In this document: positions 21,280 to 36,435 of the stretch, one piece after another | How the letters are laid out: each line of letters begins with the position of its first letter | How positions within the stretch are numbered: the first letter of the stretch is position 1 | From: a virus | Length of the DNA stretch: 36,435 bases | Virus record (IMG/VR): IMGVR_UViG_3300003873_000029 | Coordinates: 1-36,435 of that record | Reading direction: 5' to 3' (one strand) | Program-made: the position numbers and the translations under genes | The notes under the pieces: model-generated | The model's database searches: none | What the model was told of the DNA's origin: nothing | The model's input: the letters and a program-made list of their open reading frames with translations, nothing else

Positions 21280-21867
21280 TTAGATCTCCTGGTCTTTTAG
21301 TTTGTCAATCGCAGACGATACGTCGCCGTCTGCAAAATTCTTGTAACTTGCTGCCGCGCTTTTCAACATCTTAAATGCAACTGGCAATTCGGCATCCGTG
21401 AACGTGTCAGTCGTTTCTGTTGCTAGAGCATCGCGCATGATTGTCGCCGTATCTTTGTCAGTAAAATCATAATCGGAATCAACAAATCGACGTGCCTTCT
21501 CGATCACCGCGCCATGAGCTTTTACAGCAGCGTCCGCAAATTCTTTGGACTGTTTCGCGACCGCGTCGGAAAATAGTTTTTCACTCTGTGAGTCACCTAT
21601 CTGAGTACCCGCTTGTGGGTCAGCTTGTGGGTCGGCTTGTGGGTCGGCTTGTGGGTCGGCTTGTGGGTCGGCTTGTGGGTCGGCTTGTGGTGTTACTGAT
21701 CCCGCGCCCGCGGACTCGAGGACTTTATTCAGTACCGGCACAAGTTTAGCGAGCTGATCGACGGGGACTGATTTGATCGCCTCAGGCAGTGCCGTCACCA
21801 GGGCGATTATTTGCTGCAAATTCGGCTTACCTGCATCATCGCAGAATGCTTCATGTAGTTTTTCCAT
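21280..21867 (-). CDS. Internal in-frame scaffold protein, 195 aa
   Basis: Inside the protease gene an ATG (21867-21865) is preceded by AAGGAG with a 5-nt spacer, the best ribosome-binding site in the neighbourhood. Translation from here gives MEKLHEAFCDDAG and onward: the acidic helical C-terminal half without the protease. Nested scaffolds made this way are established for lambda C/Nu3 and relatives. The in-frame position at the domain border supports real use. Confidence 0.68.
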   Translation of the reverse strand: MEKLHEAFCDDAGKPNLQQIIALVTALPEAIKSVPVDQLAKLVPVLNKVLESAGAGSVTPQADPQADPQADPQADPQADPQADPQAGTQIGDSQSEKLFSDAVAKQSKEFADAAVKAHGAVIEKARRFVDSDYDFTDKDTATIMRDALATETTDTFTDAELPVAFKMLKSAAASYKNFADGDVSSAIDKLKDQEI

Positions 21868-31162: not shown

Positions 31163-31218
31163 TTCACTATATCTTATGGTTTCGGCCTTTTGCATCAGGT
31201 TTGCTTATATTGAAATTA

Positions 31219-31977
31219 TCAGCTTAACCTAGACGATATCCACTGCATTTTGACAATCTTTCCGCCTTCCCGGATTCGATCCGCCGCGCGCTCGTCCAGC
31301 ACATCCGACTTCAGCTGCTCGCCAGTCAGATTACTGATAAGTAGCGTCGGCATGTCGGCTGAATACCTGTCACACAAAATTTCCGAAAATATTTGTTTGT
31401 CATCCTCGCTGCATCGTCCTGCGCCCAACTCGTCCACCACCAACACATCGGCATCAATAAAATTATTCATTGCCTGCTGTTCTGTCATTTCTTTTTTTCG
31501 CCATGAGTCTCTGATAGCTCTGATTAGTCTCGTAGACGTAGTGTAAACAGGGTTTATGTGCGTTTTTATACCATACTCATCAACTTTTTTACATAACGAC
31601 ATTGCACCTATAATACCAGCCGACAGCATCGTTTTACCTGTTCCACAATTACCCAGCATAAGCATGCGAAGTGTGCGCCCGTTAGCAAAGTCCTGCGCCG
31701 CGGCTTTAGCAGCACATTTTGCTTCAGTGTCTGCAATCCAATCATCTAGCGATACGCCACAAAATTTTTTTGGCATACCGGAAGCCAACCATCGCCTTTC
31801 CATCATTGCTTTATATGCTTGCCTCTGCCGTTCTCTCTCTTCATCCTGAGCTGCTTCCCTTACACAAATATCACATCCAGGGTGCTTCTCTCTAGTTGTG
31901 ACTGTTCCGTGTTTGGGACAATTAAACTCAATTTCTCGTCCAAAAGTTTTTTCAATATTCTCCAATATGGGTTGCAC
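31219..31977 (-). CDS. DnaC-like helicase loader ATPase
   Basis: The 252-residue protein has an N-terminal zinc cluster (Cys20, His23, Cys35, Cys38), a Walker A loop GNCGTGKT at 109-116 and a Walker B VLVVDE ending at Asp182-Glu183, the DnaC/IstB AAA+ pattern. It would load the host DnaB helicase at the phage origin. The GTG start at 31977 shares a base with the stop of the initiator gene. No phage helicase is present, so host DnaB is the expected partner. Confidence 0.88.
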   Translation of the reverse strand: MQPILENIEKTFGREIEFNCPKHGTVTTREKHPGCDICVREAAQDEERERQRQAYKAMMERRWLASGMPKKFCGVSLDDWIADTEAKCAAKAAAQDFANGRTLRMLMLGNCGTGKTMLSAGIIGAMSLCKKVDEYGIKTHINPVYTTSTRLIRAIRDSWRKKEMTEQQAMNNFIDADVLVVDELGAGRCSEDDKQIFSEILCDRYSADMPTLLISNLTGEQLKSDVLDERAADRIREGGKIVKMQWISSRLS

Positions 31978-32651
31978 TAGAATACCCCCGAATAATCATT
32001 CTTATCAAATCCGCTACGCTGGATACGATGAGGTTCTGTGGTATCGTATTCGTCATCCCATCGTTCTCCATTTAGCCATGTTGTTGGTAGTGGGATGAAC
32101 TTGCCACCATCTTTTCGCCAATCGTATGATGCCAATGCTCTATCAAGTCCGTTCATTACCGCTTCGCATTTTCCGTTGTAAAGTTTTTTCAGTTTCCATA
32201 TTTCTAGCGACTTTTTGCGATCTTTCTTTTTCGGATACTGTGACCAGAAAGCGTTGAATGTTGCGGTGACTGCACAAGGTGTTTTAGAAGTATCATTATC
32301 AGTATCATTATCAGTATCAGTATCAGTATCATTATCAGTATGGGCTTTTTTGGGTTCGCTTGGGTTTTTTGGGTTACCATATAACCCACTGGGTTTTTTG
32401 GGTTTTCTAGGTCTCCCGCCCTTGCTGCCATTGACTTTGTTGCGCTCACAAATTCTATTATACTTATCTATGTCTCTGTCAATTTGATTGCGTATTGGTA
32501 TAAAAGCGATAGTTAATAAGGGGTCAAGGTCTGGATTATTACCCTGTGAATATAGCCTGATTGCTTTGAATAATTTGCCGGATTGTTCATCGGAAAGATG
32601 CTCAAGTATATCAAGGCTGTCTGTGTATAATAAGAATGATTTTTTACTCAT
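31977..32651 (-). CDS. Replication initiator-like protein (DUF6291 N-terminus)
   Basis: The N-terminal domain (FLLYTDSLDILEHLSDEQSG to PIRNQIDRDIDKYNRI) matches DUF6291. A low-complexity linker of Pro/Lys and Asp/Thr/Asn repeats follows, then a DnaT/O-like C-terminal segment (FWSQYPKKKDRKKSLEIWKL and LPTTWLNGERWDDE). The domain order and the DnaC-like gene right after it fit a lambda O-type initiator that recruits the loader. The linker DNA contains clustered repeats that may be the origin. AGGAG precedes the ATG. Confidence 0.75.
   Translation of the reverse strand: MSKKSFLLYTDSLDILEHLSDEQSGKLFKAIRLYSQGNNPDLDPLLTIAFIPIRNQIDRDIDKYNRICERNKVNGSKGGRPRKPKKPSGLYGNPKNPSEPKKAHTDNDTDTDTDNDTDNDTSKTPCAVTATFNAFWSQYPKKKDRKKSLEIWKLKKLYNGKCEAVMNGLDRALASYDWRKDGGKFIPLPTTWLNGERWDDEYDTTEPHRIQRSGFDKNDYSGVF
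32291..32404. repeat. Repeat cluster in the initiator gene, candidate origin
   Basis: Eight tandem hexamers TATCAG/TATCAT run from 32291 to 32338. Next to them, TGGGTTTTTTGGGTT occurs exactly at 32361-32375 and 32390-32404, with a degenerate copy at 32341-32356, and GGGTT/AACCC form an inverted repeat between them. The two exact copies are read in different frames, so the DNA itself seems conserved. In lambda-like phages the origin iterons lie inside the initiator gene. Confidence 0.5.
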
Positions 32652-32778: not shown

Positions 32779-32806
32779 ATTATATATGCAATGCCTGATA
32801 ATTCAA
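32779..32806 (-). promoter_or_regulatory. Promoter of the leftward replication operon
   Basis: TTGAAT (32806-32801), a 16-base spacer and a perfect TATAAT (32784-32779) on the minus strand form a good sigma-70 promoter. The predicted start near 32772 leaves a leader of about 120 nt before the initiator gene at 32651. Confidence 0.6.
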
Positions 32807-32844
32807 GATGGTTATCCTGCCGAATCAAGACAAAACTTTCCTGT

Positions 32845-32855
32845 CGTGAATCACG
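32845..32855. promoter_or_regulatory. 11-bp palindrome
   Basis: CGTGA and TCACG flank one base (CGTGAATCACG), about 40 bp upstream of the replication promoter. A possible binding site for a small dimeric regulator such as the Cro-like protein at 33004. Confidence 0.35.
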
Positions 32856-32882
32856 CTTTTATTTTTTGAATTGTCAGCAGGT

Positions 32883-32961
32883 GATAGTCAGTCATCTGCC
32901 GGTATGTCATCAGAAAGGCGGGAGCTTTCGCCACCCGCCGTGTTTGAGATGACTGACTATC
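32883..32961. repeat. 15-bp inverted repeat enclosing a GC-rich hairpin
   Basis: GATAGTCAGTCATCT (32883-32897) is an exact reverse complement of 32947-32961. Inside, GGCGGG (32917-32922) and CCCGCC (32934-32939) form a second stem with an 11-base loop. On the minus strand the inner hairpin is followed by TTTCT, so it could act as a weak terminator between the Cro-like gene and the replication operon. The outer arms are far longer than termination needs and point to an RNA structure or a protein-binding site. Confidence 0.7.
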
Positions 32962-33003
32962 CAGCACTCTAGGCAAAGAAAGCGGGGAGGCAAGTACAAA
33001 TGT

Positions 33004-33201
33004 TTATTCATCTATAGCCTCCCTGACGCATAGTGCCGCAATGAACACGCCTATTTTATATGATGGGGTTATCGTGTCCCCAAGAGCCAGTAATGAGATA
33101 GCTGCCCGCGTACAGCCAACTTGATCGGCAATATCGGATTGATTAAACCCTTTTCCTGCCAATGCTTTAATACGCCGCTGCCAAATAGTTTCTTTTTCCA
33201 T
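33004..33201 (-). CDS. Cro-like helix-turn-helix regulator, 65 aa
   Basis: The HTH is plain: GFNQSDIADQVGCTRAAISL at residues 18-37, with CTRAAIS as recognition helix. Small size and position at divergent promoters suggest a Cro-type repressor of the early operons. AAGGAG lies 6 nt before the ATG. Its own promoter lies at 33220-33248. The non-coding region downstream holds candidate operators. Confidence 0.82.
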   Translation of the reverse strand: MEKETIWQRRIKALAGKGFNQSDIADQVGCTRAAISLLALGDTITPSYKIGVFIAALCVREAIDE

Positions 33202-33219: not shown

Positions 33220-33248
33220 ATCGTATCATAAATAAATAAATCGCGCAA
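33220..33248 (-). promoter_or_regulatory. Promoter of the Cro-like gene
   Basis: TTGCGC (33248-33243), a 17-base AT-rich spacer and TACGAT (33225-33220) on the minus strand give an acceptable sigma-70 promoter. Only 6 bp separate its -35 from the -35 of the rightward promoter, so the two polymerases would compete. Confidence 0.55.
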
Positions 33249-33254
33249 GGGTGC

Positions 33255-33283
33255 TTGACATTCCCTTTCGATAGGTTTAGGGT
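33255..33283 (+). promoter_or_regulatory. Rightward early promoter
   Basis: A perfect TTGACA (33255-33260) is followed by a 17-base spacer and TAGGGT (33278-33283), which keeps the conserved first, second and last bases of the -10. It would start transcription of the operon that carries ERF, exonuclease and SSB. The weak -10 suggests regulation. Confidence 0.55.
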
Positions 33284-33296
33284 TCGGGCTATCGAA
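33267..33296. promoter_or_regulatory. 8-bp inverted repeat spanning the early promoter
   Basis: TTCGATAG (33267-33274) and CTATCGAA (33289-33296) are exact reverse complements separated by 14 bases. They bracket the -10 box and predicted start, the ideal place for a repressor operator. Confidence 0.6.
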
Positions 33297-33365
33297 GGCA
33301 AACCGGGCGGAACGCTAATCGCAAGTATCTCGGACAACCGACACGAAGCAAAAAGGGAGTGTAAT

Positions 33366-34297: not shown

Positions 34298-34868
34298 ATT
34301 GTTATCGAAAATACAGCGTGAGTTGAAGGCGCCAAAAAGCAATTTCAATTCATTCGGGAAGTACAGTTATCGTTCATGCGAGGATATTCTTGAAGCAGTG
34401 AAGCCGTTGCTTGGTGGTGCTGCGCTCACGTTATCAGATGAAATGGTGGAAGTAGGTGGTCGAGTATATGTTAAGGCCACTGCAACACTTATTGCAGGTG
34501 AAACAATCAGTGTAACAGCCTTTGCTCGTGAGCCTGATTCACGCAAGGGAATGGATTTGAGCCAGATAACCGGCACAGCATCATCCTACGCACGCAAGTA
34601 TGCCTTGAATGGGTTATTCTGCATTGATGACACCAAGGACGCTGATACCATGAATAACTCACAGACAACAACGAATGCCGTAATGGATGATGAAGCATTC
34701 CATAAAAACCTCCCGACTTACACGAAGATGATAAAGTCAGGCGCTAAGTCTGCTAGTGAACTGATTAACTTCCTTTCCAGCAAAAAAGAGCTGACACCAG
34801 GACAGTGTGAAACACTCAATAAAATAAAGGTGTCCGAAGTTATGGACGCCGAGGTGGTGAACGGATGA
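34290..34868 (+). CDS. erf: ERF-family single-strand annealing protein
   Basis: The 192-residue protein has the ERF core: KIQRELKAPKSNFNSFGKYS at the start, the ATATLIAGETISVTAFARE strands, and GTASSYARKYALNGLFCIDD, the family signature. It anneals complementary single strands, in this operon with an exonuclease and SSB, to repair, circularise or concatenate phage DNA. GTG at 34290 has GGGAGG 6 nt upstream. Confidence 0.92.
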   Translation: MNKLLSKIQRELKAPKSNFNSFGKYSYRSCEDILEAVKPLLGGAALTLSDEMVEVGGRVYVKATATLIAGETISVTAFAREPDSRKGMDLSQITGTASSYARKYALNGLFCIDDTKDADTMNNSQTTTNAVMDDEAFHKNLPTYTKMIKSGAKSASELINFLSSKKELTPGQCETLNKIKVSEVMDAEVVNG

Positions 34869-36435
34869 AAGCAACAACGCATAATTTACAGCAGGGGTCC
34901 ATCGAGTGGCTGCAATTTCGAAAAAAACACTTCGGGGCATCAGATGCGCCAGTGATGATGGGATTGTCCAGTTATAAAACACGTGACCAGCTGCTACATG
35001 AGCGCAAAACGGGTATTTCACCAGACATTGATAGCGCAACACAAGCACGCTTTGATGAAGGCCACCGGGCAGAAGCACTTGCCCGTGAAGTGATTGAAGA
35101 TCAGGAAGGCGAGGAACTTTTCCCGGTGACCGCCACCTTAGATTTTAATGGATTGCCGTTATCCGCGTCATTCGATGGTGTGGATCTCTGCGAAACATTC
35201 TGCGTTGAACATAAACTGATAAACGCGAAACTAGCAAAACTTACATCCATTGATGATCTGGATATGCAATACAAGGTGCAGATGACGCAGCAAATGCTTG
35301 TTGGTGGATTAAAGAAATGCCTGTTTGTTGCCAGTGACGGCACAGCAGAAAACATGGTGCAATTCTGGTATGAATACGACGACATCCTATCGTCTGATAT
35401 ATTAACACATTGGCGGCAGTTTGCTAATGATCTCGAATCATACGAAGCACCGGTAGTGACTATTGAACCAGTAGCAGCAACAGTCGAAAGTCTACCCGCA
35501 TTGAACGTGCAGATATCCGGAGGTGTAACGAAGTCGAACCTTAACGACTATAAAGCCTATGCACTCAAGTTTATAAACGGCATCAGCACGGACTTACAAA
35601 CAGATCAAGACTTCGCCAATGCTGATGCACTGGTAAAATTCTGTGGCAAAACAGAAAAAGAACTTGATGCAGTCAAGAAAGCGGCATTATCACAGACAGA
35701 GGATATTGCCAACCTGTTCGCCGCCATTGACGATATTAAGTCAGTAATACGGACGAAGCGTCTGGCACTGTATAAAATGGTGAAGTCGTGTAAGGAACAA
35801 TTAAAGTTGGATAGCGTTGCCAATACCGATGAAGAGTTACAAGGCCACATAAAGAAACTGAACAAGCGCATCAATGATGATGTTCACCTTCCACTTATTG
35901 AAACTCATTTTACTGATGTTATTAAGCATAAGCGATCATTGGAGTCTATGAATAACGCGCTTCACACTGAACTAGCACGCTGTAAGATAGCAGCTAACGA
36001 GTGCGCTGATATTATTGAAATGAACATCAAGACGCTGCATGAATTGGCACCAGAGCATGGCTTCCTGTTCCGTGACTTACAGGAAACTTGCACGAAGCTG
36101 CCTGATGACTTTGCATCAATGGTTAAGTTACGTGTCTCTGAATATAAGACAGCGGAAGAAAAGAGGCTTGCAGACGAGCGCGAACAGATACGAAAAGAGG
36201 AAGAAGCCAAAGCCGAAGCTAAGGCGAAAGCAGAAGCCGAACGCATCCGGCTTGAAGAAGCTGCCAAGGTGCGTGAAGCGGCATTGAAAGAAGAACGCGA
36301 CCGTATCGAAGCCGAACGTAAGCAAATGGCCGTGAAGAAAGCGGAAGCGACTATCAAGCCTACCGTAGCACCAGAGGCGGAAAAGACAGCCAGCGTTGCA
36401 ACACCGCTTCCACGAAGTAATACAAACGGTTTCAG
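34865..36435 (+). CDS. YqaJ-type (lambda exonuclease-like) exonuclease with long helical extension
   Basis: Residues 1 to about 190 are a YqaJ nuclease: GSIEWLQFRKKHFGASDAP, Asp in SFDGVD, the Glu-x-Lys of VEHK and the Gln-rich QYKVQMTQQM. It would resect duplex ends to feed the ERF annealing protein, whose gene it overlaps by 4 bp. Residues about 220-420 form a helical domain, and about 425-500 a highly charged coiled coil (EQIRKEEEAKAEAKAKAEAE). The frame continues through the end and stops at 191, making 565 residues, far longer than the usual 200-350. Confidence 0.9.
   Translation, partial: MKATTHNLQQGSIEWLQFRKKHFGASDAPVMMGLSSYKTRDQLLHERKTGISPDIDSATQARFDEGHRAEALAREVIEDQEGEELFPVTATLDFNGLPLSASFDGVDLCETFCVEHKLINAKLAKLTSIDDLDMQYKVQMTQQMLVGGLKKCLFVASDGTAENMVQFWYEYDDILSSDILTHWRQFANDLESYEAPVVTIEPVAATVESLPALNVQISGGVTKSNLNDYKAYALKFINGISTDLQTDQDFANADALVKFCGKTEKELDAVKKAALSQTEDIANLFAAIDDIKSVIRTKRLALYKMVKSCKEQLKLDSVANTDEELQGHIKKLNKRINDDVHLPLIETHFTDVIKHKRSLESMNNALHTELARCKIAANECADIIEMNIKTLHELAPEHGFLFRDLQETCTKLPDDFASMVKLRVSEYKTAEEKRLADEREQIRKEEEAKAEAKAKAEAERIRLEEAAKVREAALKEERDRIEAERKQMAVKKAEATIKPTVAPEAEKTASVATPLPRSNTNGF
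36372..36435. repeat. Second copy of the 64-bp terminal redundancy
   Basis: Identical to bases 1-64 and inside the exonuclease gene. It marks the point where the circle was opened. Confidence 0.95.

Follow-up and report, generated by a model that had tools for sequence, protein, structure and literature searches.

The window, by which we mean the whole stretch of 36,435 nucleotides analyzed here (IMG/VR record IMGVR_UViG_3300003873_000029), is recognizable from its sequence as a tailed-phage genome, with genes for a terminase, a tape measure, SSB, Erf and a YqaJ-type exonuclease. Its gene directions diverge at ~33.2-33.36 kb. Rightward from this point lie recombination genes, and leftward the order is a cro-like gene, the structured element described here, an initiator-like gene and the gene of a DnaC-like helicase loader. 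The first of these encodes a 65-aa helix-turn-helix regulator (33004..33201, minus strand; PHROG transcriptional regulator families, E 4e-8 and 8e-8), the replication initiator-like gene (31977..32651, minus strand) matches Pfam DUF6291 (E 2e-26) and PHROG replication initiation families, and the loader gene (31219..31977, minus strand) matches PHROG_50 (E 7e-50). Since leftward genes are found on both sides, the element is intergenic in the leftward early operon or part of its leader, and its sense strand is the minus strand. These assignments bear out the location given in a preliminary description, which had placed the element between the genes for the Cro-like protein and for replication and had also remarked that no gene explains it. 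Indeed, no credible gene covers the hairpin: the sole ORF of at least 50 aa over most of it (32791-32952, plus strand) lies on the strand opposite to the flanking leftward genes. A search for relatives of a 37/53-aa ORF, which is located past the element and ahead of the replication gene, returned none.

GC skew merely tracks gene direction along the window. Tandem 12-bp repeats (AGTATCATTATC, 4.4 copies) occur at 32289-32341 inside the DUF6291 gene, beside GGGTTTTTTGGGTT-type repeats. They resemble the iterons that some initiator genes contain, lambda O among them, and by this analogy mark a candidate origin. In L012, which has a related DnaC-like gene, GGTTAACC-type repeats are found in the gene just upstream. 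Another 12-bp tandem repeat (GCTTGTGGGTCG, 6.7 copies) is located at 21611-21690, within the DUF2213 gene of the head region.

The element is composed of two arms of 15 bp, 100% complementary and 49 nt apart, at 32883-32897 (GATAGTCAGTCATCT) and 32947-32961 (AGATGACTGACTATC). In RNA sense on the minus strand, the 5' arm of this stem I (32947..32961, GATAGTCAGTCATCT) has a pairing probability of ~0.98, and the 3' arm (32883..32897, minus strand, AGATGACTGACTATC) is its inverted-repeat match. An apical hairpin, GGCGGG-U-GGC-GAAA-GCU-CCCGCC, is nested between them (32917..32940, minus strand; pairing probability 1.0), and in the predicted fold a GNRA loop (GAAA) closes GGCGGG/CCCGCC on the minus strand. 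Both the exact 15-bp inverted repeat at 32883-32961 (15 of 15 positions complementary) and the nested GGCGGG/CCCGCC hairpin had been noted in the preliminary description and are present. The arms are not palindromic in themselves. No other inverted repeat of the 36.4-kb window with a loop of up to 120 nt is as long, and chance alone would yield 0.017 repeats of 15 bp whose loop does not exceed 100 nt (mean of 60 dinucleotide-preserving shuffles). When the element itself was shuffled, a terminal stem this long was obtained in 0 out of 20,000 cases. Its folding energy is ~-40 kcal/mol on both strands (z -4.4 on the minus and -4.7 on the plus strand); because both fold about equally well, energy alone does not choose the strand. 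The apical hairpin is followed by UUUCU, and there is no U-run after the 15-bp stem on either strand. A terminator-like switch had been among the roles proposed, and an ordinary intrinsic terminator was rejected for the missing U-run and because a terminator scan of both strands did not include the element among terminator-like sites. A search of the whole window against Rfam, including the c4 antisense RNA, returned no family above the gathering threshold, and the weak matches nearby were unrelated.

A single close relative was identified, the phage contig IMGVR_UViG_3300022695_000041 (hereafter L015), whose Cro protein is 89% identical to that of the window. Cro homologues were looked for in phages and plasmids, in species genomes and in 398 genomes from a single phylum, and L015 provided the only close relative. 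The early genes of the two phages share 67-90% DNA identity in patches, and the structural genes are almost without DNA match. In L015, the cro gene is followed by an extra 86-aa ORF, a flank of ~50 nt, a hairpin, CACCTGC, the shared AAAATAAAAGCGT, GTCTTGA, GGCAGGAG and the replication gene. The flank corresponds to a G-poor and C-rich region of the window (32962..33012, minus strand), which gave a 65-nt blastn match at 89% and is identical to L015 at 48 of ~52 positions (~92%) in a pairwise alignment. The A-rich AAAATAAAAGCG after the hairpin is also conserved. The L015 hairpin therefore occupies the equivalent position, between conserved flanks, and since L015 carries a different hairpin at precisely this joint, we discarded an insertion element. 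The replication modules behind the two hairpins are unrelated, with DUF6291 and DnaC in the window and a RepB-type primase and a helicase in L015.

No further copies of the element were recovered. The exact-arm pattern was absent from viral contigs, and the flank sequence TTGCCTAGAGTGCTG occurred there at 15 loci, of which the L015 phage alone was real and the others were unrelated sequence. Relatives of the window replication proteins, of the L015 replication protein and of the terminase carried no further copies, and an inverted-repeat scan upstream of DUF6291 homologues did not find the element. The region had no DNA match in phages, E. coli genomes or plasmids, and the hairpin sequences themselves gave matches at chance level only. 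The comparison with L015 also returned a non-coding remnant, ISKPDAKGRNHKI (31165-31215, minus strand), which matches the C-terminal end of a 214-aa ORF of L015 (8752-9396) and looks like what remains of the end of a gene that has been lost. This ORF has no Pfam match and is possibly a homing endonuclease. In addition, the exonuclease-like gene (34865-36435) runs off the window end and SSB comes at 619; these positions, together with the L015 gene order, suggest that the record represents a genome that was cut or is circularly permuted.

The two hairpins differ in sequence, and they differ in a coordinated way. When the arms were aligned by hand starting from the stem foot, we observed that one A-T pair of the window is deleted from both arms in L015, that a G-C pair is replaced by C-G and that a T-A pair is replaced by C-G. 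Moreover, one position has become a bulge and two additional pairs have formed at the top, so that stem I has 11+5 bp in L015 and 15 bp in the window. The duplex energies of the phages' own arms are -23.4 and -25.4 kcal/mol, as compared to -12.1 and -11.5 kcal/mol when the arms are swapped between phages. The L015 terminal stem was equalled in 8 out of 20,000 shuffles and is thus also improbable as a chance event. Neither the sequence nor the length of the region between the arms (49 nt in the window) is conserved in L015, and the same is true of the apical hairpin. A sequence-only alignment and consensus fold of both phages slides the arms and misses stem I. Judging from the aligned arms, they appear to have changed together, such that the fold rather than the letters was kept, with three events in two genomes. 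Paired changes in both arms of a relative had been suggested beforehand as a check for RNA structure, and the L015 stem favors base pairing. Even without selection, however, the arms of an inverted repeat can stay matched if one corrects the other by template switching during replication. In both phages, the element is the most structured stretch on the cro side (z ~-4), and comparable structure was sought in the divergent operon of both phages and not found. U-G pairs in stem II of the window (see below), at the top of stem I in L015 and in the apical hairpin of the window are possible in minus-strand RNA only.

Directly after stem I, a second stem is predicted in both phages. In the window, this stem II region (32815..32882, minus strand), defined by pairing probability and flank alignment, pairs CCUGCUGA (32881-32874) with UCGGCAGG (32823-32816), and in L015 CCUGCC pairs with GGCAGG. 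The predicted probability of these pairs is 0.77-0.89 for the window and 0.82-0.96 for L015, and the loop contains AAAATAAAAGCGT (32865-32853), which is identical in L015. In L015, GGCAGGAG lies 5 nt ahead of an in-frame GTG. This codon is probably a better start of the replication gene than the first ATG, since the latter is without ribosome site and its window counterpart is not ATG. The GGCAGGA of the window is the counterpart of the probable Shine-Dalgarno sequence of the L015 replication gene. Because this probable ribosome site falls within stem II, the stem would hide it. The homology of the window to L015 stops just past GGCAGGA, with no clear start codon after it. A second inverted repeat of the window (32866-32877/32795-32806; 12 nt, 92%) is not seen in L015. 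Its pairing would come at the expense of stem II, and the -35-like part of a downstream promoter-like site falls within the repeat.

Promoter-like sites are found on both sides of the element. A pR-like site for cro, TTGCGC-N17-TACGAT (33220..33248, minus strand), was read from the sequence and corresponds to TTGACG-N17-TACGAT in L015; its consensus score is 6.5 in the window, which is weak, and 10.2 in L015. The conserved flank holds another site found by promoter scoring, P2, composed of TTGCCT (32993-32988), 16 nt and TAGAGT (32971-32966) on the minus strand, with TTGACT-N16-TAGAGT in L015. P2 ends a few bases ahead of the stem in both phages. It is weak by consensus and its scores are modest, as that of the window is reached by ~1 in 570 positions per strand and that of L015 by ~1 in 2,500 window positions. 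In both phages the predicted P2 start coincides with the stem foot; if P2 is real, an RNA begins at the foot of stem I. Downstream of the element and upstream of the replication gene, a strong site, TTGAAT-N16-TATAAT (32779..32806, minus strand), has a score reached by ~1 position in 14,600 per strand. On the opposite side of cro, in the 33255-33300 region, a promoter-like site for the rightward operon (TTGACA-N17-TAGGTT) overlaps CGATAG...CTATCG. Here CCGAACC..TAAACC..ATCGAAAGGGAATGTCAAGC is conserved in L015 and is a candidate Cro operator.

It is likely that the leftward early transcript contains the element in base-paired form. For its function, our tentative preference, with chances a little short of even, is mainly a cis-acting structured leader RNA that controls the replication operon. 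The leftward RNA would start upstream of cro, or at the promoter-like P2 at the stem foot, stem I would fold in it as a stable cap or insulator, and stem II would then set ribosome access to the first replication gene. We infer that the element is transcribed, that P2 acts as a promoter and that the translation or stability of the replication message is controlled. The position of the hairpin, the covariation of its arms and the conserved flanks support a leader, as do both stems, which are predicted in both phages. In these two genomes, compensatory changes preserve a structure that has the same location ahead of the operon, as is typical of cis-acting leader RNAs. The element also resembles the structured leaders that sequester the ribosome site of phage and plasmid replication genes, with a stable hairpin and a second stem holding the site. 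This comparison concerns the general mechanism alone, as no homologous sequence was found and the target start codon in the window is unclear. Given the stronger promoter-like site downstream and the lack of a clear start codon after GGCAGGA, the target of control is less clear in the window, and control through the ribosome site is less certain there than in L015. A bolder proposal, to which we give a small chance, is a new class of phage early-transcript RNA recognized by shape, in which stem and flanks are kept, the apex is free, and the RNA acts in cis on RNA polymerase or ribosomes whatever replication module follows.

Among the alternatives, a separate small RNA that starts from P2 and acts in trans, as an antisense regulator or a protein decoy, is unlikely but survives best. 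It would account for the predicted P2 start at the stem in both phages, for the stronger promoter-like site that the window replication gene has of its own and for the retention of AAAATAAAAGCG after the hairpin. Such an RNA would recall the phage P4 cI RNA and the P1 c4 RNA, which are short hairpin RNAs in an early leader beside a regulator. However, the element differs from them in having no Rfam match, and no downstream complementary target was found beyond the short stem II. The minus strand is also without intrinsic terminator after the element, the window holds no extended complementarity beyond the element's own arms, and the apical part, where the base-pairing seed is usually placed, is not conserved.

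Less probable is a role at the DNA level, where the hairpin, extruded or in single-stranded DNA, would serve lagging-strand priming or replication control, or where the arms would be paired protein sites. The element adjoins replication genes, DNA base pairing explains the covariation as well as RNA pairing does, and L015 encodes a RepB-type primase; primases of this type use hairpin priming sites, as in RSF1010. However, the arms are non-palindromic, their concerted changes would not be required of paired protein sites, and the U-G pairs indicate RNA of the minus strand. The two phages have unrelated replication proteins behind the element, which argues against an initiator-specific origin, and the iteron-like repeats of the initiator sit inside its own gene. 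When the roles listed in the preliminary description are weighed, what remains is a structured regulatory RNA, either leader or small RNA. The compensated arms and the unrelated L015 replication gene lower the likelihood of a site for a repressor or recombinase and of an origin specific to one initiator.

Slightly lower still do we rate a cis-acting RNA that would keep RNA polymerase from terminating or pausing. In phage HK022, the put RNAs cause antitermination without any protein, via the zinc-binding domain of RNA polymerase. The element has the nutR/putR place after cro, and like putR it is a structured RNA of ~70-80 nt in the early operon, with two adjacent stem-loops predicted here and no known protein partner. 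No Rfam family matches the element. In the window, it follows the predicted start of the cro transcript by ~255 nt, and putR lies ~270 nt from its start (PMC9378689). However, after the candidate HK022 putL and putR stretches had been located via their mutual similarity, local alignment of the element to them was within shuffles (120-388 out of 500 as good). Put sites lie downstream of each early promoter, whereas in both phages studied here the structure is on the cro side only, and the extra L015 gene shifts it further from pR. Moreover, an RNA that contacts the polymerase should keep its sequence, and put consists of two sequence-conserved bulged stems, whereas the element has a long regular stem that varies, as does its apex. 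The lambda nutR/tR1 region is similar in its place between cro and the replication genes, and the window hairpin has a purine-rich loop. The element differs from lambda nut in several ways: no convincing boxA could be read from the sequence, the stem has 15 bp where that of boxB is short, the divergent operon carries no second copy and no N gene was identified.

Least probable is that the element limits read-through from cro to the replication genes, either by attenuating transcription or within a Rho-dependent terminator such as lambda tR1: its tR1-like position, the C-rich and G-poor upstream flank reminiscent of Rho sites and the UUUCU are set against the missing proper U-run, the absence from the terminator scan, an apical hairpin that is not conserved in L015 and a switch pairing of the upstream CCCGCU with GGCGGG that we rejected because its predicted probability is 0.

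Lambdoid phages keep transcription switches at the junction between cro and the replication genes, and our analysis adds to this junction a candidate structured RNA that is absent from Rfam. The element itself is new and unnamed, and is of a kind already known. Since the regulator and the element are shared while the replication genes are swapped, we would assign the element to the regulatory module rather than to the replication machinery. Should it control read-through or translation, the timing of replication would be set in a simple manner that requires no protein.
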